Shown here: positions 2,137-20,610 of the stretch, piece by piece
Position numbering within the stretch: the stretch's first letter is position 1
Layout of the letters: every line of letters begins with the position of its first letter
NCBI GenBank assembly: GCA_035998445.1
Contig: DASYHQ010000023.1
Coordinates: 1-64,000 of the forward strand
Source: Tepidisphaeraceae bacterium
GTDB lineage: Bacteria > Planctomycetota > Phycisphaerae > Tepidisphaerales > Tepidisphaeraceae
DNA: 64,000 nucleotides
Direction: 5' to 3'
Notes under the pieces: generated by a model
Databases searched by the model: none
The model's input: only the letters and a program-made list of their open reading frames with translations
What the model was told of the DNA's origin: nothing
Position numbers and translations under genes: made by a program

Positions 2137-2284
2137 GATTGACCTCCGTGCGAACGCGATGGATCAGTTGTAACGAGATCCCACCCTATTGGGAATCGTT
2201 TCGAGCGTCCTCGAAGCTCAACAACACACTTCTGTCCCGGCACCTAGTGAAATCCATCACAACCGCGTATACCATACCGCAGCC

Positions 2285-3886
2285 ATGCCCAAGATCACCG
2301 TAGACGGCGTACAGATCGAAGCGAAGGACAAGCAGATGATCCTGCAGGCCTGCAATGATGCGGGGCATGCGCTGCCGCAGTATTGCTATCACCCGGGGTT
2401 GTCCATCCCCGCGTCCTGCCGTATTTGCCTGGTGGAGGTCGAGGGGATTCCCAAGCTCGTGCCGTCGTGCCAGACGCCGATTCGGGACGGCATGGTCGTG
2501 CATTCCAACAGCACCAAGGCCATCGCCAACCAGAAGCAGGTGATGGAATACCTGCTGATCAACCACCCGCTCGACTGCCCGGTCTGCGACCAGGCCGGTG
2601 AGTGCTACCTGCAGGATTACAGCTACGGGTACGGCCGCAGCCAGAGCCGCTTCGAAGAAGACAAGATCAAGCAGCCGAAGAAGGACGTCGGGCAGAACAT
2701 CATGCTCTACAGCGACCGGTGCATCATGTGCACCCGCTGCGTCCGCTTCACGCGTGAGATCTCCGGTACCGGTGAGTTGTACGTGGACGGGCGCGGCCAT
2801 CGCGAGGAAATCGACATTTTCCCCGGCCGCCCGGTCGACAACAAGCTCGCGGGCAACGTGGTCGACCTTTGCCCGGTCGGCGCGCTGTTGGATAAAGACT
2901 TCCTCTTCAAGCAGCGCGTCTGGCTGCTGAAGAACGCCCCGAGCATCTCGCCGGTCGACAGCGGTGGTGAGAACATCTACCTGAACTACAACGACGGCGT
3001 GATCTACCGCATCAAGCCGCGCTACAACCCTGACGTGAACGGCTGGTGGATTTCCGACGACACCCGCTACAGCTACAAGGCCGTCCACAGCGATGCCCGA
3101 CTGATTCACGCAAAGAAGACGCAGTACGGCGCGCAGGTCGACACCAGCTATCCCAAGGCCGTCGAACAGGCCGCGACCGACCTGAAACACCTCGTGGCCA
3201 CCAATGGCGAGGGCAGCCTTTACGCGGTGCTGTCTCCGATGATGGCCTGCGAAGAGGCGTTCCTGCTCGGCACGCTCATTCGCCAGTGGGATCCGCAAGC
3301 GACGCTCGTCCTCGGCCCCGTGCCGACCAGCGGCCAGAACGAGACGTTCAAGAACAGCCTGACCGGCAAGCAGACCTTCGAGATTCAAGCCGAAAAGGTG
3401 CCCAACAAGAACGGCATCAACCGCGTGCTGGCCATGCTGGGCGGGCCGACGGCGACGTTCGACGAGCTAACCGCCGGTGCGAAGGATCCGAAGTTTGCCA
3501 AGCTGAAGGGCGGCTGGATCGTCGGTGGGTACCTGAGCAACTGGATCACCTCGCCCATGCTGACGGCGTTGAAGGGCTACAAGGTCGTACAGGACATCCT
3601 GCCGTCGGCGCTAACCGAAAAGGCCGACGTCCTGCTGCCCAGCGCCGCCTGGGCGGAAAAGGACGGCAGCTGGGAAAACTACGCGGGCAAGCTGCAAACC
3701 TTCGCCGCCGGCATCGCACCGATGGAGGGCGCGCGACGCGAGGGCGACGTTTACTACAGCCTGCTCGGGCGCACCGGCTTCTACAACGCCGCCGACGTTC
3801 GTCAGGAAATGGGCGAGTTCTTCGCCGCCGCCCCCATGCCCAGCGGTAAGGCCGAAGAGCCGGCGTTCGAGTTCGCGGAACTGTAG
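2285..3886 (+). CDS. nuoG: NADH-quinone oxidoreductase subunit G (short form)
   Basis: Peripheral-arm iron-sulfur subunit of respiratory complex I. The ATG at 2285 was chosen because the protein then begins 'MPKITVDG' like its family; upstream in-frame codons add unrelated residues. Visible clusters: a [2Fe-2S] ferredoxin domain (C34, C45, C48, C62), the His-Cys3 [4Fe-4S] site (H94, C98, C101, C107) and a second [4Fe-4S] set beginning C146-x2-C149-x2-C152 with a later CPVGAL. The C-terminal molybdopterin-oxidoreductase-like half is short (533 residues in all, versus about 900 in Escherichia coli), as in several bacterial NuoG proteins. It is followed by a GH18 gene rather than nuoH, which lies about 6.7 kb downstream. 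Confidence 0.93.
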   Translation: MPKITVDGVQIEAKDKQMILQACNDAGHALPQYCYHPGLSIPASCRICLVEVEGIPKLVPSCQTPIRDGMVVHSNSTKAIANQKQVMEYLLINHPLDCPVCDQAGECYLQDYSYGYGRSQSRFEEDKIKQPKKDVGQNIMLYSDRCIMCTRCVRFTREISGTGELYVDGRGHREEIDIFPGRPVDNKLAGNVVDLCPVGALLDKDFLFKQRVWLLKNAPSISPVDSGGENIYLNYNDGVIYRIKPRYNPDVNGWWISDDTRYSYKAVHSDARLIHAKKTQYGAQVDTSYPKAVEQAATDLKHLVATNGEGSLYAVLSPMMACEEAFLLGTLIRQWDPQATLVLGPVPTSGQNETFKNSLTGKQTFEIQAEKVPNKNGINRVLAMLGGPTATFDELTAGAKDPKFAKLKGGWIVGGYLSNWITSPMLTALKGYKVVQDILPSALTEKADVLLPSAAWAEKDGSWENYAGKLQTFAAGIAPMEGARREGDVYYSLLGRTGFYNAADVRQEMGEFFAAAPMPSGKAEEPAFEFAEL

Positions 3887-4022
3887 GCGGAAGAACGAAT
3901 AGCCCTGCGATACGGGCATCTCATCTGGCACGTCGCCGCGCAGCGGGATAGGCGAGGCGACGTTGGCGACTTGTAACCGGCGGATCGCCGCGAGCACCGT
4001 CGGGTGCTGCTGGGACGCAGTG

Positions 4023-5177
4023 ATGAGTTACTCCAAACCTTTGTCCCTCGCTCTCCTCGCGCTGCTCCTGGTTTTCGCCGGCCCTCGCGTCAGCGCCGCC
4101 GAGCCGTGGGTAAGCGGCTACTACCCGGGGTGGGAACAGGACCGCGTGCCGCCGGCGAAGATTCCGTTCGACGCCGTCACGCATGTGTTTCACTTCGCTT
4201 GCGTCGTCCGGCCGGACGGGACGCTGAACACGTCGGACTTTATGTTGACGGACGCGCACGTGAAGGAGACGGTCGCGGCGGCGCGGGCGGCGGCCAAGAA
4301 GGTCGTGATCGTGCTGGGTGGCGCCGACAGTGAAGCAGGGTTCGTCGGCGCGACGTCGGACGACAACCGCCAGCGATTCATCGCCAACATCGTCGACTTC
4401 GCACGCACGCACGGTTACGACGGCGTTGACATCGACTGGGAACCGCTGAGCAACGCCAACAACGAACAGTTCCGCCGTTTCGTCGTGGAACTGCGTGCCA
4501 AGTTGCGTGCGCACGATCCGCAAGCGCTGCTGACGGCGGCCACTGGGACGAGTCTGACAAATCGCGAGGTGGGACGGTTGTTCGCTGGCTTGCAGGACGA
4601 GCTGGATCAGATCAACCTGATGACCTACGTGCTGGCCGGCGCGTGGGAAGGGTGGGTGACCTGGCACGGGGCCGCGTTGTCCAACGGTGGGGCGCGGTTC
4701 GGCGAAGCGGGACGGGAAATGCCGTCGGTCGAAACGAACATGCGCGAGTTCGTCACGGCGGGCGTGCGACCCGAGAAGCTCGGTATCGGACTCGCCTTCC
4801 ACGGCAGCGTGTGGGCGGGCGGTGAAGGCACCGACACCGGTGGCGTGACGCGCCTTAAGCAAGGTTGGACGACGCCACCCAAGGTGGACGTCGACGTCGG
4901 CTACGCCGACATCATGCGACAGTACTACGCCCCTGATCGCCTTCGCTTCGACGAGGTCGCGCAGAGCCCATACCTGTCGATCGACCGCCCGGGCGCCGCC
5001 GACGATCGCTTCGTCTCCTTTACTGATGCCCGCGCGATCACCGCGCGCTTGGCCCACATGACCGAGCAGCGGTACGGCGGCTGCATTGTCTGGAACATCG
5101 CACAGGATGCGCTTCCAACCGGCGAGCACCCGCTGGCAGACGCGATCATCGCTTTCCGACAACGGCCGGCGCGGTAA
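4023..5177 (+). CDS. Secreted glycoside hydrolase family 18 (chitinase-like) protein
   Basis: 384 residues with an N-terminal signal peptide (about residues 1-25, cleavage after 'VSAA'). The GH18 signature DGVDIDWE lies at residues 133-140; its last Glu (E140) is the expected acid catalyst. 'LMTYVLAG' corresponds to the conserved MxY segment. Family members hydrolyse beta-1,4-linked N-acetylglucosamine polymers by a substrate-assisted mechanism. The true substrate (chitin, peptidoglycan-like or glycoprotein glycans) cannot be read from sequence. The next gene starts 25 nt downstream on the same strand, suggesting co-transcription. Confidence 0.9.
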   Translation: MSYSKPLSLALLALLLVFAGPRVSAAEPWVSGYYPGWEQDRVPPAKIPFDAVTHVFHFACVVRPDGTLNTSDFMLTDAHVKETVAAARAAAKKVVIVLGGADSEAGFVGATSDDNRQRFIANIVDFARTHGYDGVDIDWEPLSNANNEQFRRFVVELRAKLRAHDPQALLTAATGTSLTNREVGRLFAGLQDELDQINLMTYVLAGAWEGWVTWHGAALSNGGARFGEAGREMPSVETNMREFVTAGVRPEKLGIGLAFHGSVWAGGEGTDTGGVTRLKQGWTTPPKVDVDVGYADIMRQYYAPDRLRFDEVAQSPYLSIDRPGAADDRFVSFTDARAITARLAHMTEQRYGGCIVWNIAQDALPTGEHPLADAIIAFRQRPAR

Positions 5178-5201
5178 CATGACCCGCCGAGGCACAGCGA
5201 A

Positions 5202-7358
5202 ATGAAGTTAGACGAATCGCGCGTGGTCACGTTAATGCACCGGTGGGCACGATGGGCCGAGCGGTGGTGGTACGCGGTGCCGGGCAACCCGGCGCTAGGG
5301 TGCTTCGGCACCGGGTACGACTGGTGGGGCGTGCAGACCAACGCGAAGTACGTCGCCGCGATGGCGGTGCTGTCGACGCGGGCGGAACTGAGCAACGCCG
5401 ACCGCGACTGGGCGCGCCAGCGGGCGCTGGCGGCGCTGCGGTTCTGCATCGCGTCACATATGTCAGGGCCGCTGGCATGCACCGACGGTCGGCAGTGGGG
5501 GCAGACGTGGATCAGCGGGTTGGGCATCGAGCGCATGATGCACGGCGTGGCCGCGATCGACGAACACCTGACGGCCGCCGACCGCGCGGGCTTGCAGCGC
5601 ATGCTGGAGTCGGAGTGCGACTGGTTGCTGACCGACTACCGGCGCGGCTCGAACGTCGGCATCAAGATCGACAAGTGGAACGACTCGGGCAAGAACGACC
5701 CGGAATCAAACCTGTGGAACGGCGCGATCCTGTGGCGCACCGCCGCGATGTATCCCGATCACCCGCACGCGGCGCGGTGGCGCGAGCACGGGCTGGCGTT
5801 CTTGGCCGCGGGCGTGAGCATCGCGGCCGATGCGAATGATGACACGGTCTACGACGGCTTGCCGCTGAAGCAGCGGCACGTAGGCGCGGGCTTCTTCGAC
5901 AGCTATGCGCTGGACCATCACGGCTACTTCAACGTCGGCTACATGGCCATCTGCGTCAGCAACGCGGCCATCCTCCACTTCGACCTGAAGCGGCTCAACC
6001 TGCCGGCGCCGCAACTGCTGCACCTGCACCAGCGCGACTTGTGGCGCACGCTGCGGCCGTTGATCTTCACCGATGGTCGCCTCGTGAGAATGGGTGGCGA
6101 CACGCGCGTGCGCTACGCGTACTGCCAGGAGTATCTGGTCCCATCACTGCTGTACGCCGCCGACCATCTCGGTGACGCGATCGCGGTGGAGCTGATGGAT
6201 GGATATCTGTCGTTGTGCGAGACCGAGGCCGCTTACAACGGTGACGGCAGCTTCTACGGCCGACGGTTGGCAGCGCTGGCGAACCACAACCCGTACTATT
6301 ATGTGCGGCTGGAAGGCGACCGCATCAACGCGCTCAGCATGGCGCTCGCCTACGCGCCGCTCGTGCGGCCGAAGAAGAAGGTCGAAGCCGACCCGTCGCC
6401 GACGGTGCTTTGGTCCGACCGCGAGTACGGCGCTGCGATGCATCGCTCACCGACGCGGCTGGCGTCGTTCGCCTGGCGCGCCAAGGGCCTCACGCAGGGC
6501 CTGTGCGTTCCACCCGATCGCAGCGACCTAGCCGAGTGGGAACAGAACCTCGCCGGCGAGATCACGTTCGTGCACGACCCGCATTCCGGCAACAAACTCC
6601 GCCGCCTCGTGCGGCACGACGTTCGCGAGATGCCTGGCGGGTTCATCACCAGCGGTACGATCGTGGAGGGCGCGCAGCTGTTCATCGCCGAAGGATGGAC
6701 CGGCAAGGACCTCGGCCTGCACTACCTCGCGTTCGTCGCGCTGCCGGACGATCGCACGGTCGTCGGCATTCAGGTCTGCCGGGCCGCCGCGCTGCGCGCG
6801 CTGGTTCGCAACGTGAAGGGATTGCGATTGAACGTGCCGAACGATCTGTTCAACAACTTCACGCGCCAACTCGACATCGCTGGCGGCACCGTGCAGTTGA
6901 ACGCCGCCGCGAATAACGAAGTGGTGTCGCTCGATTCGCGCTGGGCGACGATCGACGGCCGGTTGTCGGTGGTGGGCCTGTACGGCGCACCGACGCTCAC
7001 GCTCGACCGTTCCACCGCCCAGCGCGGTGGTGCGACGCCGAACCTGACCGTCGAGCAACTCTGCTTCGGTCACCGCAGCGAGGTCGCGCCGTTTTTCGTC
7101 GAACCGAATGCCGTGCTGCTGGACTGCGCCTGGATGGTGAGCACGACCGACGCCGCCGCTACGCGCCAACTGGCCGACCGCAACGCGACGGCTCGGGTGG
7201 AAACGAACAATGACGCGCTGCGCGCCGTCGCCGTCCACGACACCGCTGGAAAGCGTCACGTGATCGTGCTGAACGCCAGCGAGTCATCGGTGACCGCCGA
7301 CGTGATGGGAAAGACGATCACGCTTCCCGCGGGCGAGGCGACGCATTGGGCGGTGTAA
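5202..7358 (+). CDS. Large toroid-type protein, possible polysaccharide lyase or hydrolase
   Basis: 718 residues, no signal peptide, no membrane segment. The first 400 or so residues are helical, with regularly spaced aromatic and His/Tyr residues (for example 'NHNPYYY' and 'DSYALDHHGYFNVGY'). This resembles the alpha/alpha-toroid of lyases and some glycoside hydrolases. The last 300 residues read as beta-rich, as in the C-terminal sandwich of heparinase/alginate-lyase-type enzymes. I do not recognise a specific family, so the enzyme class is inferred from overall pattern and from its position 24 nt behind the GH18 gene. A GAGG Shine-Dalgarno precedes the ATG by 9 nt. Cytoplasmic location would suit an enzyme acting on imported oligosaccharides. 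Confidence 0.6.
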   Translation: MKLDESRVVTLMHRWARWAERWWYAVPGNPALGCFGTGYDWWGVQTNAKYVAAMAVLSTRAELSNADRDWARQRALAALRFCIASHMSGPLACTDGRQWGQTWISGLGIERMMHGVAAIDEHLTAADRAGLQRMLESECDWLLTDYRRGSNVGIKIDKWNDSGKNDPESNLWNGAILWRTAAMYPDHPHAARWREHGLAFLAAGVSIAADANDDTVYDGLPLKQRHVGAGFFDSYALDHHGYFNVGYMAICVSNAAILHFDLKRLNLPAPQLLHLHQRDLWRTLRPLIFTDGRLVRMGGDTRVRYAYCQEYLVPSLLYAADHLGDAIAVELMDGYLSLCETEAAYNGDGSFYGRRLAALANHNPYYYVRLEGDRINALSMALAYAPLVRPKKKVEADPSPTVLWSDREYGAAMHRSPTRLASFAWRAKGLTQGLCVPPDRSDLAEWEQNLAGEITFVHDPHSGNKLRRLVRHDVREMPGGFITSGTIVEGAQLFIAEGWTGKDLGLHYLAFVALPDDRTVVGIQVCRAAALRALVRNVKGLRLNVPNDLFNNFTRQLDIAGGTVQLNAAANNEVVSLDSRWATIDGRLSVVGLYGAPTLTLDRSTAQRGGATPNLTVEQLCFGHRSEVAPFFVEPNAVLLDCAWMVSTTDAAATRQLADRNATARVETNNDALRAVAVHDTAGKRHVIVLNASESSVTADVMGKTITLPAGEATHWAV

Positions 7359-7362
7359 TTCC

Positions 7363-7500
7363 GGCCGTGGCATGGGCGCCAGAGCCCATGCATGTTGTGA
7401 ACCAAGAGATTTGTTGCAGCCGCGCGGTCGAAGCGGTCTGCCACAAATGTCAACGACCGTTCAATCGAGATGCATGGGCTCTGGCGCCCATGCCACGGCC
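7363..7500. repeat. Perfect 31-bp inverted repeat, CATGGGCGCCAGAGCCCATG family
   Basis: Arms at 7363-7393 and 7470-7500 are perfect inverted copies; each arm is itself a small hairpin (CATGGGCGCC...GCCCATG). The spacer is 76 nt with no ORF. It fills the space between the converging genes ending at 7358 and 7525. Related copies lie at 20893-21175, 25150-25287, 34165-34309, 42087-42223 and 58455-58484. Confidence 0.85.
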
Positions 7501-7524
7501 AATGCGATCGCCGCTGTAGTGACA

Positions 7525-9351
7525 TCAACTCGCCAGCGCTGCCGCCGAAGGTGTCGCGCCGCTGCGGCTCCTTATGCCACCAATCTCGAAGCGCAGCGTG
7601 AAGCTGTCGAGCGTGCCGGGGAGCTTGCCAGGCGGCAGGCGGTGGGGGTCGCGCAGGCGGACCGTGTGGTTGTCGATCAGGCCGGCCAGCACGCCGCTGG
7701 TCAGCAGCAGCACGAGGTTCTGCGCGGGGCAGTGAGCGGTGCCGCCGCTGAACGGCACGAACGGCCACTCGCGCGGGGGGAAGCCGCACACGTTGGCGTC
7801 GTCTTCAATCCAGAGGTTCGGGTGGAACGTGTTGGCGAAGGGCAGGCGCTCGTCATCGCGGTGGAAGAAGGGCGCAAAGAGCAGCACGCCGGTGCGCGCG
7901 GGCATAATACCGTTGTCCCACTCGGTCTGGCGTGTCGTCTGCCGCAGGATCATCGGTGTGGTCGGCCAAAGCCGTAACGCCTCCAGCATCGCGGCGCGCA
8001 ACAGCGGGCGCATCGGCCGATCGGTGACGGCGCCGCCGGTGGTTTCCTGGCGCACCTCGTCCAAATGCTGCGGATGCGTCGCCAGCAGCGCCAGCGCCCG
8101 GAACGACGCCATGGCGGCCGCATCGAACGCGAATAGCCACTGCGGAATTTGCCCCTCGGGCTTCTGCTCGTCCGATCGCACCTTCGTCGCCATGTAAGCG
8201 CAAAGGCTGTTGGGCTCGGCCTTGTCCAGGTAGGCGCGAATGCGGCCGTGCAGTTCGTCGCGCAGATCCGTGCGGCGCGGTTTGGCGAAGGCCCAGTTGG
8301 CGTCGGCGCGCAGCCAGGCGGCCAGGTCGGTAATGCGCCGGTCGTCGCGCGCGCCATTGCCGAAGATCACCCGCCGAACGATCGCGAAGATCGCGTCGAT
8401 GTAGTCGTCCCACCGCAGCTCGCCGCCCGACTGCTTCACGTGGTTCAACAATCGGCCGATCTCGTCGTCCACGATTGGCAGGAACGCGCCGGCCATGTGG
8501 TGGATGGGGCTCTTGCTCTCCAGCACCTGGTCGTTCAACTCGCGGCGCAATCGCCGCGCCGGCCCGTGCGAGATGAGCACGCCGTGCGGCTCGAGGTGCG
8601 CCAGGGCCGCCTGCTTCTCGGTACTGGCGGTGGCGAAGGGCTCTGGCGATTCATCGAGCACCCGGCGGACGTGGTCGGGGTCCAGCAGCACCGCCTGATT
8701 GCGGAACGGCACCTTCAGCATGAGCGGGCCGTTACCGTACTTGCGCCGCAACTGCTGCATCATCTTCACCGCCGCCGTGTCGACACCGAGCTTTTCGCTC
8801 ATCGCCACCACGCGCGGCCGGCGGATGATCGCGCCCTTAGCCACGTTGGGCATGAACATGCCCCACACCACCTTCGACGAGTCGAGCAGCGACGCGGTCG
8901 GCAGACGGTTCTCCTTCGCGATCTTCGGCTCGCTCGCCGCATCACCGGCACCGGTGGCGGTCATTGTGTCGGTCGGCGTGACGACGTGGACTTCATCCAC
9001 GCGCGGTTTCGATTGGCTGTCCGTCAACGGCGCGACGGCCATATCCATCAGCCCCATCCCCAGCGCGCACGCGGTGACGGCGGCGTTCTCGCGCCGCCGT
9101 TGGACGAACGGCAACGCGCCCATCATTACGCCCCCCGCAGCGTCGAGCGCCAGGTGCGTCTTCATCGGCAGCATCTTGGCCACACCTAACTCGTGCCGCG
9201 TCACCAAGGCGTAACCCAACTTGCCCAACGCCAGTATTGTCGCGGCGCGCGTGAACGGCTTGCTTGCCCCCAACAATCGCGGGAACGCGATCGCGAAGGC
9301 GACGGTGGCGATATCGAGACAGGCGTGCGTACGCGTGGAGATCTTCATCAT
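7525..9351 (-). CDS. Cytochrome P450 fused to an N-terminal membrane domain
   Basis: 608 residues. The ATG at 9351 follows GAAGGA by 8 nt, so it is preferred over the longer frame. Residues 1-130 hold about four hydrophobic segments and begin 'MKISTRTHACLD', resembling SPW-type small membrane domains. A linker follows, then a P450 domain with the ExxR helix ('EALRLWP') and a heme-ligand loop 'FSGGTAHCPA' (Cys near residue 541). The I-helix segment reads 'FDAAAMASF', without the usual acid-Thr pair that activates oxygen. The protein may therefore be a peroxygenase-like or otherwise unusual P450. Membrane-anchored, substrate unknown. It stands alone, convergent with the toroid gene. Confidence 0.85.
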   Translation of the reverse strand: MMKISTRTHACLDIATVAFAIAFPRLLGASKPFTRAATILALGKLGYALVTRHELGVAKMLPMKTHLALDAAGGVMMGALPFVQRRRENAAVTACALGMGLMDMAVAPLTDSQSKPRVDEVHVVTPTDTMTATGAGDAASEPKIAKENRLPTASLLDSSKVVWGMFMPNVAKGAIIRRPRVVAMSEKLGVDTAAVKMMQQLRRKYGNGPLMLKVPFRNQAVLLDPDHVRRVLDESPEPFATASTEKQAALAHLEPHGVLISHGPARRLRRELNDQVLESKSPIHHMAGAFLPIVDDEIGRLLNHVKQSGGELRWDDYIDAIFAIVRRVIFGNGARDDRRITDLAAWLRADANWAFAKPRRTDLRDELHGRIRAYLDKAEPNSLCAYMATKVRSDEQKPEGQIPQWLFAFDAAAMASFRALALLATHPQHLDEVRQETTGGAVTDRPMRPLLRAAMLEALRLWPTTPMILRQTTRQTEWDNGIMPARTGVLLFAPFFHRDDERLPFANTFHPNLWIEDDANVCGFPPREWPFVPFSGGTAHCPAQNLVLLLTSGVLAGLIDNHTVRLRDPHRLPPGKLPGTLDSFTLRFEIGGIRSRSGATPSAAALAS

Positions 9352-9618
9352 GACTGCATCCTTCGGAAGCGCGCGACCGGGAAACGAACGACGCGGGTGC
9401 CGCCTAGCGGAGCGCGGTTCCACCGTCGTGCCTGGCGTCATTCGCGAAGCGCGGCAAAGCCCGTTCCAGCGATGCCCGAACGAACACAGCTAGGGAAAAA
9501 CGATGTAGCCGGTCCGCGGATGGTGATCATCCGAGCCGAGACGCGTTTCGGGGGTATTCAGTTTTGGCCTGATCGTGGATCATCATCCAATCCAGTGGTG
9601 ACAATGGGAGGGCCACGC

Positions 9619-10569
9619 ATGTCTGTACCTGAGGAAGATCCGCCGCCATTACCCTCGAATGAGCAATCTCCCCTGTCGTACCGGCAGGGACCGCAACCCG
9701 TCTCGCTGCGCGGGTTTCGGCTGTTGCTGTTTCTGACGCTCGTGAACACCATCTTGCTGGGCGGCTTTGTTATGGGGCCGGCGCTGTCGGCGTTCGGCAA
9801 GCAGCAGTGGGCGGACTACCAACGTCGACAGGCCGCCGAACGTGCCGAGGTCGCGAAGATCGCGAAGGAACAGGCGGCCGCAGCAGCGCGACAGGTGGCG
9901 ATGGTGGCCGAGCAGAAATGCTTTACCCACGCGTGGCCGATGGGAACGCTTCTGTACGACGACGATCCCAAGCGTCCCGGCGGCCCCGAGGAACCAGCGG
10001 GTAAGCGCGGACAGGACGGAAAGCTCCCCAGCACCAACCCATCGGTCGCCACTCCGCAACTGCCATGGCCTTGGGTGACGCCGTTGCCGGAGGCATTTCA
10101 ATCTGTGGCTTCGTCGCTACCGTCAAGGTTGGCCGGTCGGGCCCTCTCTGCACAGACCTTACTGTTCATGCACGAGCGACGCGCGTCCCAGTCGTCCGAG
10201 CCTCGCCTCGTCGTCGTCCTGATCGATGCGACGTTCCTGCTGAACCGATCGCAAGGGTTTCAGCATGGCCGTCGTGATGTATCTGCAATTGTGCTGCACC
10301 CTACGTCGCCCACCACGCCCATGACCGTCCGAATGTCCTCCGAATACAATCGTACGGAGGATTCCGGTGATCCGTACCCACCCCTGCGTCTCTTCGCCGG
10401 CGTCGCCGACTCGGCCGATGTCACGCGGTTTTACATACCATATGAAATGGCCGGGAAGTCGGGCATGATCGTCGGACGCCTACAAGGCGACGACACGGTC
10501 CATCTGCGGGCCGAGGGGCCGCTCGCGAGCGGATGGCACCTTGACCTGAATCGCCCCTATTCACCGTAG
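9619..10569 (+). CDS. Single-pass membrane protein of unknown function
   Basis: 316 residues; the ATG at 9619 is chosen over 9604 because GGGAGGG lies 7 nt before it. A proline-rich cytoplasmic head (about 35 residues) is followed by one membrane segment ('FRLLLFLTLVNTILLGGFVM'), then a basic/alanine-rich helix and a larger domain without recognised motifs. No enzyme signature is visible. It precedes nuoH by about 70 nt on the same strand and may share its transcript, but there is no evidence that it belongs to complex I. Confidence 0.65.
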   Translation: MSVPEEDPPPLPSNEQSPLSYRQGPQPVSLRGFRLLLFLTLVNTILLGGFVMGPALSAFGKQQWADYQRRQAAERAEVAKIAKEQAAAAARQVAMVAEQKCFTHAWPMGTLLYDDDPKRPGGPEEPAGKRGQDGKLPSTNPSVATPQLPWPWVTPLPEAFQSVASSLPSRLAGRALSAQTLLFMHERRASQSSEPRLVVVLIDATFLLNRSQGFQHGRRDVSAIVLHPTSPTTPMTVRMSSEYNRTEDSGDPYPPLRLFAGVADSADVTRFYIPYEMAGKSGMIVGRLQGDDTVHLRAEGPLASGWHLDLNRPYSP

Positions 10570-10638
10570 CGGCAGATCCGTCGAAAAACGCCAGTCCAAC
10601 CGCGCCGGTGGTGGCGGAAGTAAAGGGGCGCGTTTAGG

Positions 10639-12120
10639 ATGCTGCCCATCATGGTCGACGTGCTCACTGACTGGTTCAAGGCCAACTATCACTGGATCAC
10701 CCTCGCGATCGTCCTGCACGTCATCGTGCTGGGCACGGTCGCGTACCTCATCCTGCTCGAGCGCAAGATCGCGTCGTGGGTGCAGGACCGTATCGGGCCC
10801 AACCGCACGGGGCTGGGGTTCGGCATCATCCCGATCCTGAAGAACTTCAAGTTCTGGGGCTTGGGCCAACCCATGGCCGACGGGTTGAAGCTGTTTTTGA
10901 AGGAAGACTATCGACCGAAGCACGTTGACAAGATCCTGTTCAGCCTTGCGCCGATGGTGATGATGACGGTGATCGTCATCAGTATTGCGACGCTGCCGTG
11001 GGGCGGCTGGGTGGGGGAGAAAGAGACGATCGACGTAACCGCCCAAGCGATCGCCAGCGCCGGCCAGAGCGCCGCCGCCAACGCCGAGTACGCTGCGGCG
11101 ATTCAGGCCGCCATTCCACCGGGCAACGAGTTGATCGGTGTGCCGGTTTTCGCGCAAGACAACGGTCAGGTAACCGCCACGTTCTGGCACGGCTGGATGT
11201 TCCAGATCGCCAACCTGAACATCGGTGTCCTCTACATCCTGGCGACGCTGTCGCTGGCGGTGTACGGCGTGGTCATAGGTGGGTACGCCAGCAACAATAA
11301 GTTCTCGTTCCTGGGGGGCTTACGTGCGACGGCCAACATGATCAGCTACGAGATTCCGCTTGGCCTGGCCGTGCTGACGATCGTGGTGATGTACGGCACG
11401 CTGAATTTGGCAGAACTGGTCGAGGTGCAGGCCCACTCGTGGTACGGCGTGCTGCCGGCGTGGAACATCTTCTGCCAGCCACTAGCGTTCGTGATGTTCC
11501 TGATCTGCATCCTTGCCGAGGCCAACCGCGCCCCGTTCGACACCGCCGAGGCCGAGCAGGAACTGGTGGGTGGCTATCACACGGAATACTCGTCGATGCG
11601 GCTGGGTCTGCTGCTGCTGGCCGAGTATGCGGGCATGATCACCACCAGCGCGATCTGCGTGGCGCTGTTCTTCGGTGGTTGGGATTTCCCCGGTTTGCGC
11701 GGCCACCTGAACCCGGCGCACCCATCGCTGGTCGACAGCGTCTGGGTCGCCATCGCGCGGGCGGCGGTGTTCTACGGCAAGGCGCTGTTGATCATCAGCG
11801 TCTTCATGTGGGTCCGCTGGAGTTTGCCACGATTCCGCTTCGATCAGATCATGACGCTGGCGTGGCGCGGTTTGATCCCCATCGCGCTGCTGCAGCTGAT
11901 GGCGACGGCGTTCCTCGTCTACTACTGGGGCGGTGAAGGTCGCCAGTACATGCGCATCAACGGCTGGCACGCCCTGATGATGTTCGGCATGAACGCGTTG
12001 ATCGCCGTCGTGGTGATGGTCGGCAGCACGTTCCTGCCACCGGCACCGCAGACGAACCGCCGCGTGCACGTGCCGGGCAGCCGGTTCAACCAGACGGCGT
12101 TGCCGGCGTCGTTGAACTAA
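10639..12120 (+). CDS. nuoH: NADH-quinone oxidoreductase subunit H
   Basis: Membrane-arm subunit of complex I next to the quinone site. 493 residues with about eight to ten membrane segments. Family landmarks include 'LLERKIASWVQDRIGPNRTG' near residues 40-59, the loop 'EANRAPFDTAEAEQELVGGYH' split over residues about 294-315, and 'EYSSMR'. An Ala-rich insertion of some 50 residues after the second membrane region makes it longer than the about 325 residues of E. coli NuoH. An alternative ATG lies four codons in (10651). The SDR gene begins 13 nt after the stop, so both are probably on one mRNA. Confidence 0.95.
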   Translation: MLPIMVDVLTDWFKANYHWITLAIVLHVIVLGTVAYLILLERKIASWVQDRIGPNRTGLGFGIIPILKNFKFWGLGQPMADGLKLFLKEDYRPKHVDKILFSLAPMVMMTVIVISIATLPWGGWVGEKETIDVTAQAIASAGQSAAANAEYAAAIQAAIPPGNELIGVPVFAQDNGQVTATFWHGWMFQIANLNIGVLYILATLSLAVYGVVIGGYASNNKFSFLGGLRATANMISYEIPLGLAVLTIVVMYGTLNLAELVEVQAHSWYGVLPAWNIFCQPLAFVMFLICILAEANRAPFDTAEAEQELVGGYHTEYSSMRLGLLLLAEYAGMITTSAICVALFFGGWDFPGLRGHLNPAHPSLVDSVWVAIARAAVFYGKALLIISVFMWVRWSLPRFRFDQIMTLAWRGLIPIALLQLMATAFLVYYWGGEGRQYMRINGWHALMMFGMNALIAVVVMVGSTFLPPAPQTNRRVHVPGSRFNQTALPASLN

Positions 12121-12133
12121 TGCGAGGTCCGCC

Positions 12134-12877
12134 ATGCAGCGACTTGCGAACAAGGTTGCGATCGTCACCGGCGCCAGCCGGGGCATCGGAGCGGCCATCG
12201 CGCGCAAGTTGGGCGTGGACGGGGCCAAGGTCGTCATCAACTACGCCGCCAGCGCCGAAGAGGCCGAACGGCTGGCGAGTGAGATCCGCTACGCGGGTGG
12301 GCAGGCGGTGACGGCGTGCGCCGACCTGTCCAACCCCGACCACATTCCCGACCTCTTCGAAACCGCACGCTTGGCCTACGGTCGGCTCGACATCCTCGTC
12401 AATAACGCCGGCACCGCCATCCTGAACCAGCCGCTGGACCAGACCGACATTAGCCAGTACACGAAGCAGTTCGATCTGAACGTCCGCGGGCTCATCTTGT
12501 GCACGCAGGTAGCGCTCGTGGCGATGGGCGACGATGGTGGCCGGATCATCAACATCACCAGCGGCATCACCCGCACCCCCACCGCCGGCAGCAGCCTCTA
12601 CAGCGCCACCAAGGCCGCGGTGGAAATGCTGACCAAGTGCTGGGCCAAGGAATTGGGCGTTCGCGGCATTACCGTTAACGCCGTCGCCCCCGGCACGACG
12701 GATACGGACCTGCTGCGCTCCGCCATGACGCCAGAGATCGCGCAAATGCTGATCCAGGCCACACCGCTCGGCCGCCTGGGCCATCCGGACGATATCGCGG
12801 ATGTGGTGGCATTCATCGCGTCAAACGAGGCCCGGTGGATCACCGGCGAGATCATCGGGGCGACGGGGGGTCTTTAG
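12134..12877 (+). CDS. Short-chain dehydrogenase/reductase (FabG-like)
   Basis: 247 residues of classical SDR layout: nucleotide-binding TGASRGIG at 12-19, NNAG at 90-93, catalytic Ser143, Tyr156 and Lys160 (YxxxK). 'PG' follows in 'AVAPGTTDTDLL' and the C-terminus ends 'TGEIIGATGGL', as in 3-oxoacyl-ACP reductases. It reduces a carbonyl or oxidises an alcohol using NAD(P)(H). Substrate is not predictable, and fatty-acid synthesis is unlikely to be its main role here because no fab genes are nearby. It lies 13 nt behind nuoH and 54 nt ahead of the Uma2 gene. Confidence 0.9.
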   Translation: MQRLANKVAIVTGASRGIGAAIARKLGVDGAKVVINYAASAEEAERLASEIRYAGGQAVTACADLSNPDHIPDLFETARLAYGRLDILVNNAGTAILNQPLDQTDISQYTKQFDLNVRGLILCTQVALVAMGDDGGRIINITSGITRTPTAGSSLYSATKAAVEMLTKCWAKELGVRGITVNAVAPGTTDTDLLRSAMTPEIAQMLIQATPLGRLGHPDDIADVVAFIASNEARWITGEIIGATGGL

Positions 12878-12931
12878 ATCGGCTTCGACAGCAGCGGGGG
12901 ATGGCTGCTATACTGTGCCGGGAGCGTTGTC

Positions 12932-13495
12932 ATGACTCAACTTGCGACCGCACACACGTTCGCTGAACTGCTCGCCTTGCCCGATGACGGCAAGATTTAT
13001 GAGCTGGTACGCGGCGAGTTCGTGGAGAAACCTATGGGGCGGCGATCGGTCGGGACGGCGTCGGAAATTCAGATCACCCTAGGCGGCTTTGTGAAAGCCA
13101 ATCGCCTTGGCTCCATCGCCACCGAACTGCCGATCAACTGCTTTCCCTGGCTGGGCAATCATGGGCGACGGCCCGACGTGTGCTTCTTCGATTGGCAGCG
13201 CCTGCCGGAGGGTTTTGCGTCAGACGAACACGTCACCGTAGCGCCCAACTGGGTCGCAGAAGTGTTGTCCGAGCACGACAACGCGATCGATGTTGACGAA
13301 AAACTCGAAGAGTACCTTCAAGCCGGCGTCGAGTTAATCTGGATTGTTAATCCAGCGGTGCGTACCGTTCGCGTCCATCGGGCCGACGGCAGCGTGGCGT
13401 TTTATCACGAGGCCGACACGATCGACGGTGGCACCGTGTTCCCTAACTTTCGGGCTAAAGTTCACGACCTGTTCCCTCAGCCGATGTCCAAGTAG
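12932..13495 (+). CDS. Uma2-family (DUF820) putative endonuclease
   Basis: 187 residues with the PD-(D/E)xK-like pattern of this family: 'RRPDVCFF' (D82), E110 in 'WVAEVLS' and K124 in 'VDEKLEEYLQAG'. The hallmark 'GVELIWIVNP' follows. Uma2 proteins are abundant in cyanobacteria and planctomycetes and are thought to be restriction-like nucleases of mobile origin; their targets are unknown. It is wedged between the SDR gene and nuoI (12 nt before the nuoI start), so it probably entered the nuo transcript as a cargo gene. Confidence 0.9.
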   Translation: MTQLATAHTFAELLALPDDGKIYELVRGEFVEKPMGRRSVGTASEIQITLGGFVKANRLGSIATELPINCFPWLGNHGRRPDVCFFDWQRLPEGFASDEHVTVAPNWVAEVLSEHDNAIDVDEKLEEYLQAGVELIWIVNPAVRTVRVHRADGSVAFYHEADTIDGGTVFPNFRAKVHDLFPQPMSK

Positions 13496-13507
13496 ACTGT
13501 CTCCGCC

Positions 13508-14044
13508 ATGAAAGACTCCGACGTCCTAGTTCTGGAAGAACCCAAGTTGTCGCTGGCCGATCAGTTTTACCTGCCGCAGGTGCTGAAGGGGCTGGGGACG
13601 ACGATGAAGCACATGCTGAACGTCGTCGTGCTCGGCAACGATCGCGTGCTGCAGTACCCGGAAGAGCGCCGCGAGGACTTGCCGCTGGGCGAAGGGGGCA
13701 TGCTGCGCGACACCTATCGCGGCGTGCACCGGTTGAACAAGGATGAAGAGGGCCGCGTGAAGTGCGTCGCCTGCTTCATGTGCTCCACCGCCTGCCCCGC
13801 CCGCTGCATTCACATTGAGGCGGCCGAGTCGCCGTGGCAGGATCGTGAAAAATACCCGGCGAAATTCGACATTGACGAGCTCCGCTGTATTTACTGCGGC
13901 ATGTGCGAAGAGGCCTGCCCGGTTGACGCGATCGAGCTCACCAGCAAGTACGACATCGTCGGGCTGACCCGCCAGGAGATGATCTTCGATAAGTCCAAGC
14001 TCCTGCGCGTGTACGACGAGACGATTAAAGACGAGCCGATGTAG
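13508..14044 (+). CDS. nuoI: NADH-quinone oxidoreductase subunit I
   Basis: 178 residues. Two ferredoxin-type [4Fe-4S] motifs are visible: C86-x2-C89-x2-C92 with C96 or C100, and C127-x2-C130-x2-C133-x3-C137. These carry clusters N6a and N6b, which pass electrons from the NADH arm to quinone. The N-terminus 'FYLPQVLKGLGTTMKHML' is the usual amphipathic entry of NuoI. It is followed by a strong intrinsic terminator, so nuoF just downstream must have its own promoter. Confidence 0.95.
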   Translation: MKDSDVLVLEEPKLSLADQFYLPQVLKGLGTTMKHMLNVVVLGNDRVLQYPEERREDLPLGEGGMLRDTYRGVHRLNKDEEGRVKCVACFMCSTACPARCIHIEAAESPWQDREKYPAKFDIDELRCIYCGMCEEACPVDAIELTSKYDIVGLTRQEMIFDKSKLLRVYDETIKDEPM

Positions 14045-19308: not shown

Positions 19309-20610
19309 ATGCTCGACATGCTGCGCCTGCGGCTCGACACGCTGAACTTCCTCGCGTCGCTCGCGACGCGCGGCGACTTCACACGCTTCGGTCCGAAGAA
19401 CAACGTGGTGCTCGTGAGCCATCCCGACCTCATCCGCGAGGTGCTGGTCACGCAGGCCGCTAAGTTCATCAAGGGGCCGGCGCTGCGGTCGACGAAGTCC
19501 ACCCTCGGCGAAGGGCTGCTGACCAGCGAGGGCGACTTCCACAAGCGCCAACGGCGCATCATTCAACCGGCGTTCCACGCGACGCACGTCGCGACCTACG
19601 GCCAGACGATGGTGCAGTTCACCGACCGCCTCAGCGGCGCCTGGCAGGACGGGCAGACCGTCGACATCCACGAGGCCGCCACCCGGCTGACACTGGAGAT
19701 CGTCGCCAAGACGCTGTTCGATGCCGAGGTGGAACAGGACATCGCCGAGATCGGCCGCGCGATGACGGCCAGCGTCGAGCTGTTTCCCATCCTGCTCTTG
19801 CCGTTCGGCAACTGGCTCGCGCGCCTGCCGCTGCCCCCCGTACGACGGTTCCACCACACCTGGCCGAAGATGACGCAGACGATCGAGCGTTTCATCGCCG
19901 AGCGGACCGCCAGTGGCGCGACGGGCAACGATCTTCTCTCGGTCCTCATTCGGGCCACCGATCCCGAAGAATCGGCCGGCGATGGCGGTGGCTATCGCAT
20001 GAGCCCCCAGCAGCTGCGCGACGAGGCGATCACGCTCTTCACCGCCGGCCACGAGACGACCGCCAACGGGCTTACGTATGCGTTTCACCTGATCGCGCAC
20101 TACCCAGAGGTTCAACAAAAGCTGCATGCCGAGTTGGACGCCGCGCTGGCCGGGCGAAAGCCCGAGGCGAAGGACCTCGACGCGCTGCCGTACACGCGCG
20201 CGATCGTCAGCGAGGCGATGCGCGCCTACCCGCCCGTCTGGACCGTCGGCCGCGAGGCCAACGACGACGTGCAGCTCGGCGAGCACACGCTGAAGAAGGG
20301 CGCGATCGTGCTGACCAGCCAGTGGGTTGCCCACCACGACGCCCGCTGGTGGCCCCGCCCCAACGAGTTCGACCCCGACCGCTGGCTGACGCCCGATCCC
20401 GACCGCCCGCGCTACGCCTACTTCCCCTTCGCCGGTGGCCCGCGGTCGTGCATCGGCGAGGCCTTCGCGTGGATGGAGATGATCCTGGTGCTGGCGACCA
20501 TCGCCCAGCGATGGTCGTTCGAGCCACAGTCGCCGCGCGAGCTTCGGCTGGCCCCAAGTATCACGCTGCGCCCGAAAGATGCGGTGCGCGTCCGCGTCAC
20601 GCCGCGGTAA
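19309..20610 (+). CDS. Cytochrome P450
   Basis: 433 residues, soluble, with all core motifs: I-helix 'AGHETT' near residue 247, ExxR in 'SEAMRAYPP', the 'WVAHHD...W..P..FDPDRWL' meander, and the heme loop 'FAGGPRSCIGEAFA' with Cys381. The sequence resembles the fatty-acid hydroxylase-like bacterial CYP groups (CYP102/CYP110-like), but substrate is unknown and no ferredoxin or reductase gene is adjacent. Unlike the P450 at 7525-9351, it keeps the oxygen-activating Thr. The terminal region 20611-21296 behind it has no gene. Confidence 0.93.
   Translation: MLDMLRLRLDTLNFLASLATRGDFTRFGPKNNVVLVSHPDLIREVLVTQAAKFIKGPALRSTKSTLGEGLLTSEGDFHKRQRRIIQPAFHATHVATYGQTMVQFTDRLSGAWQDGQTVDIHEAATRLTLEIVAKTLFDAEVEQDIAEIGRAMTASVELFPILLLPFGNWLARLPLPPVRRFHHTWPKMTQTIERFIAERTASGATGNDLLSVLIRATDPEESAGDGGGYRMSPQQLRDEAITLFTAGHETTANGLTYAFHLIAHYPEVQQKLHAELDAALAGRKPEAKDLDALPYTRAIVSEAMRAYPPVWTVGREANDDVQLGEHTLKKGAIVLTSQWVAHHDARWWPRPNEFDPDRWLTPDPDRPRYAYFPFAGGPRSCIGEAFAWMEMILVLATIAQRWSFEPQSPRELRLAPSITLRPKDAVRVRVTPR

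Follow-up and report, generated by a model that had tools for sequence, protein, structure and literature searches.

Members of the cytochrome P450 superfamily (PF00067) share a common fold, a Cys heme ligand, an ExxR motif and an I-helix acid, the last of which is canonically followed by a Thr that has long been held central to O2 activation. P450eryF (CYP107A1) is a natural Thr-to-Ala enzyme, in which the I-helix acid is kept and for which a macrolide substrate is known. CYP74-type non-oxidative P450s are marked by an insertion in the heme loop. The CYP152 peroxygenases carry Arg-Pro instead of the acid-Thr pair and have no Phe at the position seven residues ahead of the Cys (PMC5818669). 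Substitution of the Thr has been studied in several other P450s. The T239A variant of CYP105D18 lost its peroxygenase activity and kept its reductase-driven activity (PMC10750395), and the T268V change in P450 BM3 abolished H2O2 activity unless a helper molecule was added (PMC8944620). According to the passage of PMC10750395 that cites Imai 1989, turnover of P450cam Thr252Ala is uncoupled and yields H2O2.

Here, we describe a P450 gene from a planctomycete of the Tepidisphaeraceae. The window, that is, the whole stretch of 64,000 nucleotides that was analysed, belongs to a draft genome of 64 contigs (5.8 Mb, 95.5% complete). The encoded protein belongs to an apparently uncharacterised P450 family and carries an SPW domain as its probable membrane anchor; a literature search on this acid-Ala/Pro family found nothing. 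The protein differs from other members of the superfamily in having Ala for Thr, no basic residue at the position two before the Cys, and a length of 608 residues with an SPW domain in front.

7525..9351, minus strand: whole gene, encoding an SPW membrane domain, a linker and a cytochrome P450 (608 aa, open frame)

The P450 domain and its heme loop

7528..8904, minus strand: cytochrome P450 domain, residues 150-608 (PF00067 match at E 3.4e-21, family identity and structure model)
7972..7983, minus strand: ExxR motif, E457-A-L-R460 (column counts in 56 members)
7711..7755, minus strand: heme loop PFSGGTAHCPAQNLV, residues 533-547, with Cys541 as the ligand (column counts in 56 members)

The P450 domain scored 76 bits against PF00067, for which the cut-off is 22.8, and Cys541, E457 and R460 are all present. 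An AlphaFold2 model, made from an alignment of 49 relatives from which plasmid-derived rows were left out, has a pLDDT >90 for most of the domain, and the top 50 Foldseek matches to this model were all P450s. Among solved structures, the best Foldseek matches were CYP97C1, CYP184A1 (a structure with oleic acid) and CYP120A1. Although CYP184A1 (PDB 7wzl, 7wzm), CYP97 and CYP120 rank, by sequence or by fold, among the best-matching proteins of solved structure, their identity to the window protein is only ~16-20%, and CYP184A1 differs further in carrying the canonical HETT. The top NCBIfam match was ApyO, a RiPP P450 (NF050147; E 1.4e-15); however, with 57 bits against a cut-off of 525 bits, the window P450 is not a member of that family.

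Much closer in sequence are the members of its own family, to which the domain is 40-55% identical over its full length. Column counts in 56 members gave Glu (54) or Asp (2) at the first ExxR position and Arg in all 56 at the last, and Cys541 and Phe534 are likewise present in 56 of 56. The window protein also keeps G537 and the normal F-x-x-G-x-x-x-C spacing, with no CYP74-like insertion. At the position two before the Cys, every one of the 56 members has A, G or V, and the usual basic residue is absent. The preliminary description, which took the heme loop and ExxR to be intact, was thus right about ExxR, F534, G537 and C541 but not about this basic residue.

An I-helix acid without its threonine

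8095..8133, minus strand: I-helix motif FAFDAAAMASFRA, residues 407-419 (CYP184A1 alignment and columns of the 88-row alignment)
8122-8124, minus strand: Asp410, the I-helix acid (CYP184A1 alignment)
8119-8121, minus strand: Ala411, in the Thr slot (CYP184A1 alignment)

Comparison with CYP184A1 by phmmer paired FDAAAMASFRAL of the window with HETTATALAFAL of CYP184A1, free of gaps over the acid and Thr slots. The same comparison set FDAAAMASFRALALLATHP of the window against HETTATALAFALHLLARHP of CYP184A1, and the distance from the acid to the following HP is equal in both proteins. By this alignment, Asp410 is the acid of the acid-alcohol pair, and Ala411 replaces the Thr. Misalignment of the I-helix, with a canonical motif lying nearby, had been named as the outcome that would overturn the initial reading; it did not occur, the gap-free pairing of both slots ruling it out. 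The acid-Thr pair had been called absent as a whole, whereas only the Thr is missing and the acid is retained. A profile alignment places a one-residue gap immediately before the acid, and the I-helix may be one residue shorter at this point.

The same arrangement recurs throughout the family. Over 88 family rows, position 410 is occupied by D (82), E (5) or G (1), giving an acid in 87 of 88, and position 411 by P (61), A (23), N (2), T (1) or G (1). Because Pro or Ala so prevails at 411 and an acid at 410, the absence of the Thr beside a retained acid is, as judged from these columns, a stable trait of a large multi-phylum family.

Size and spread of the family, and probable origin of the planctomycete copy

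With an alignment as the query, at least 542 related stretches were found in genome_contigs, the best matches (55%) being from Massilia, although a scan with the window protein as a single query gave no match. Family members occur in Pseudomonadota, Actinomycetota, Chloroflexota, Gemmatimonadota, Acidobacteriota and Deinococcota, in addition to the Tepidisphaeraceae planctomycete, and many copies lie on Rhizobium plasmids. The window protein fits the marks of the family, namely the FAFD[PA][AG]G motif, LRLWPTTP and full-length homology. Among ~800 other planctomycete genomes sampled (same phylum, class and family), no full-length relative was found. In a tree of the 88 rows, the window protein forms a long branch of uncertain placement, and the row nearest to it by path is from a member of the Chloroflexaceae (L038). 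Horizontal transfer of the P450 into the planctomycete is the simplest reading of this distribution.

Two further records deserve mention. A second Chloroflexia genome (G917) holds a decayed, stop-broken family P450 (L139:4114-5468), near which no SPW gene was found. The tree places the P450 of a contig labelled Vibrio cholerae 35D (L072) within Arthrobacter; this record is probably mislabelled or contaminated.

The SPW membrane domain and its fusion to the P450

8980..9345, minus strand: N-terminal SPW-repeat-like membrane domain, residues 3-124 (homology to a standalone SPW gene, hydrophobic stretches)
8905..8979, minus strand: linker, residues 125-149 (low model confidence; missing from family members)

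The gene runs from an ATG at 9351 to a TGA at 7525-7527 with no internal stop across its 608 codons. Its coding frame begins with ATGATGAAG, and AAGGA, which resembles a ribosome-binding site, lies 7 nt before the ATG. Codon-position G+C shows a coding pattern that is unchanged over the whole reading frame, the junction included, and none of the candidate internal starts around the junction has a clear ribosome-binding site. Because of the AAGGA at the start and the even codon-position G+C, the N-terminal part is unlikely to be a separate gene, and that candidate was rejected. The initial reading of a membrane domain joined to a P450, which a separate N-terminal gene would have undone, is therefore upheld. 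In the 440-residue relatives, homology starts at about residue 150 of the window protein, and thus the SPW part is an addition.

Residues 3-124 align with an unfused SPW gene of the same genome (L002; G000:C32:74516-74878) at 34% identity (E 1.8e-12), and this standalone gene in turn matches PF03779 at E 1.9e-18 and 67.1 bits; through it, the N-terminal domain is homologous to accepted SPW members. Unfused SPW genes of the same class also align throughout with the window domain, the LP-x-x-x-H-L-x-x-D core included. The window copy differs from members of PF03779 in being fused to an enzyme and in having its SPW motif worn away, with a direct score (E 0.02, 15.8 bits) under the curated cut-off of 31.5. 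Judged by these alignments, the N-terminal domain is a diverged SPW-repeat membrane domain, in agreement with the SPW-like label that it had first been given. Two stretches, residues 9-30 and 89-110, are strongly hydrophobic, and a low-confidence model places helices at residues 6-26, 31-57, 66-84 and 87-110, so that a multi-pass topology is plausible. In the AlphaFold2 model, confidence is low at the linker, with a pLDDT of ~30-40 in residues 121-140.

No second genome with an SPW-P450 fusion was found, and the single fused example comes from the 64-contig draft; of the two features, only the fusion, unlike the altered I-helix motif, is particular to this genome. A related arrangement exists in the Chloroflexaceae locus L038, where an SPW gene starts 117 bp after the stop of the P450 gene, on the same strand and behind AAGGAG. 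This gene was detected at E 6.9e-32 with an SPW profile built without it. Among the 87 related loci, only L038 has an SPW gene near the family P450. Because the genomes of 36 relatives hold only ~30 SPW matches, placement so close by chance is unlikely (an estimated ~0.002 over all loci). As an SPW protein adjoins the P450 in one phylum and is fused to it in another, these two cases suggest that SPW and P450 may work together.

These observations also bear on the proposal that the protein is an ordinary P450 whose joining to SPW is incidental, or was made by assembly, and is neutral for function. Such a proposal is consistent with there being one fused example only and with the low PF03779 score of the window's own SPW domain. 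It fits poorly with the unbroken frame and codon bias, with a start signal that precedes the SPW domain and with the adjacent P450 and SPW genes of L038, and we consider it improbable. In several of the closest Massilia relatives, the protein starts with a short hydrophobic N-terminal segment, which may represent a second route to membrane association.

Gene neighbourhoods and an EcfG-like promoter

The consensus of EcfG promoters is GGAAC-N16-CGTT (PMC3892343). Using a promoter pattern that was chosen beforehand, we found GGAAC-N16-18-GTT at most 160 bp upstream of 9 of 15 alphaproteobacterial family genes (expected, 0.02 per gene); because some of these 15 come from Rhizobium strains related to one another, they are not independent cases, and the P value overstates their independence. 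The nine loci comprise four from Rhizobium/Neorhizobium, two from Microvirga and one each from Paracoccus, a member of the Beijerinckiaceae and a member of the Rhodospirillaceae, so the motif spans several lineages despite the kinship among strains. In Microvirga and Roseicella, the regions upstream of the standalone SPW genes showed no EcfG motif. In Alphaproteobacteria, the neighbours of several family genes encode sigma-70-family sigma factors, ferritin-like proteins, Mn-catalase, catalase and a member of the superoxide dismutase family. Going by the EcfG-like motif and the stress-related neighbours, the family looks like a part of the general stress response in Alphaproteobacteria.

A gene neighbourhood conserved family-wide was not found; SDR genes recur but are common. 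Likewise, no redox-partner gene recurs in the family neighbourhoods. An FMN reductase gene lies near the P450 in L033, and in Roseinatronobacter a fusion protein that combines a flavodoxin-like/FMN reductase domain with a UbiA prenyltransferase domain (L035:2869-4362) is encoded 0.6 kb upstream of the family P450; neither arrangement is repeated in other loci.

Substrate, proton transfer and oxidant

Taken as a whole, we favour, with confidence only a little above even, a membrane-tethered P450 that acts on a lipid-phase substrate with acid-aided proton transfer, is linked to stress and was acquired horizontally. Here, the SPW domain, to go by its homology and hydrophobicity, would tether the heme domain to the cytoplasmic membrane. 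The membrane location and the remote matches to lipid- or carotenoid-binding P450s suggest a lipid-phase substrate, and the P450 would most likely oxidise one that is fatty-acid- or isoprenoid-like. Since the acid is kept, Asp410, together with a substrate group or a bound water, could take over the proton transfer that is usually supported by the Thr. P450eryF shares the Thr-to-Ala change and the kept acid, although it belongs to a separate family. Involvement in the response to oxidative, osmotic or desiccation stress is likely, and the planctomycete probably gained the P450 horizontally and fused it with an SPW domain of the kind that it already had.

Alternatively, the enzyme may be a peroxide-driven P450 that uses H2O2 in stress, with Asp410 as the acid-base catalyst and Ala or Pro sparing the O2 proton relay. 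That no redox-partner gene recurs in the neighbourhoods would fit this alternative; however, many bacterial P450 genes have no adjacent redox partner anyway. The preliminary description had arrived at possible peroxide use from the loss of the Thr, which does not follow, because the CYP105D18 T239A and BM3 T268V variants lost H2O2 activity, the latter when no helper was added (PMC10750395; PMC8944620). The comparison with CYP152-like peroxygenases that it proposed also failed on both sequence hallmarks examined. Arg-Pro is absent, with Asp410-Ala411 in the window and D/E followed by P/A in the family, so that an Asp stands where CYP152 has its carboxylate-binding Arg, and F534 supplies the Phe that CYP152 lacks. 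By these hallmarks, the protein is not a CYP152 member. Nonetheless, the window protein shares with P450 BSbeta and OleT an I-helix without Thr, and Pro, the residue that occupies the Thr slot in the family majority, is the same residue as in the CYP152 Arg-Pro (PMC5818669). Moreover, OleT P246D, in which an acid was placed at the Pro position, supports peroxide use (reviewed in PMC5818669). The Pro in the Thr slot and the catalase and Mn-catalase neighbours thus keep peroxide use in contention, albeit as a rather unlikely reading.

A non-oxidative or oxidase-type heme enzyme, such as an isomerase, a dehydratase or an NAD(P)H oxidase making H2O2, seems improbable as well. The uncoupled turnover attributed to P450cam Thr252Ala in PMC10750395 (citing Imai 1989) and the absence of the Thr from nearly the whole family would accord with such an activity, yet all but one of the 88 rows retain the acid, the heme loop is spaced normally with no CYP74-like insertion, and no positive evidence for it was found.

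The wider point is that a widespread bacterial family does without a residue of such standing in O2 activation while keeping the acid. If the family were peroxide-driven, it would represent a second natural solution for H2O2 use by P450s. A fuller version, in which an acid-Pro/Ala family acts in the general stress response, uses peroxide at the membrane and partners an SPW protein in some lineages, the two being a single chain in the planctomycete, is unlikely in our estimation; if true, it would define a natural peroxygenase class that is separate from CYP152 and marked by an acid, not an Arg, in the active site. Two points are open to testing, namely control by EcfG in Alphaproteobacteria and the link to SPW membrane proteins.

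Other features of the window

The genome holds two further P450 genes. One of them, also in the window (19309-20610, plus strand, 433 aa), lies 10 kb from the fused gene and has a canonical TAGHETT I-helix.

Two convergent genes end on either side of a perfect 31-nt inverted repeat at positions 7363-7500, with arms at 7363-7393 and 7470-7500 that are 76 nt apart. Its 25-nt core has 14 copies in the genome and occurs three times as inverted pairs ~105-112 bp apart; the repeat is a REP-like or REPIN-like element.

Complex I-like subunit genes, named from their translations, are located at 2189-3886, 10639-12120 and 13508-14044. Within 2189-14044, genes of other kinds stand among them, including the P450 gene and genes for a GH18 protein, an SDR and a protein of 718 aa, which gives the look of an unusually interrupted nuo cluster.
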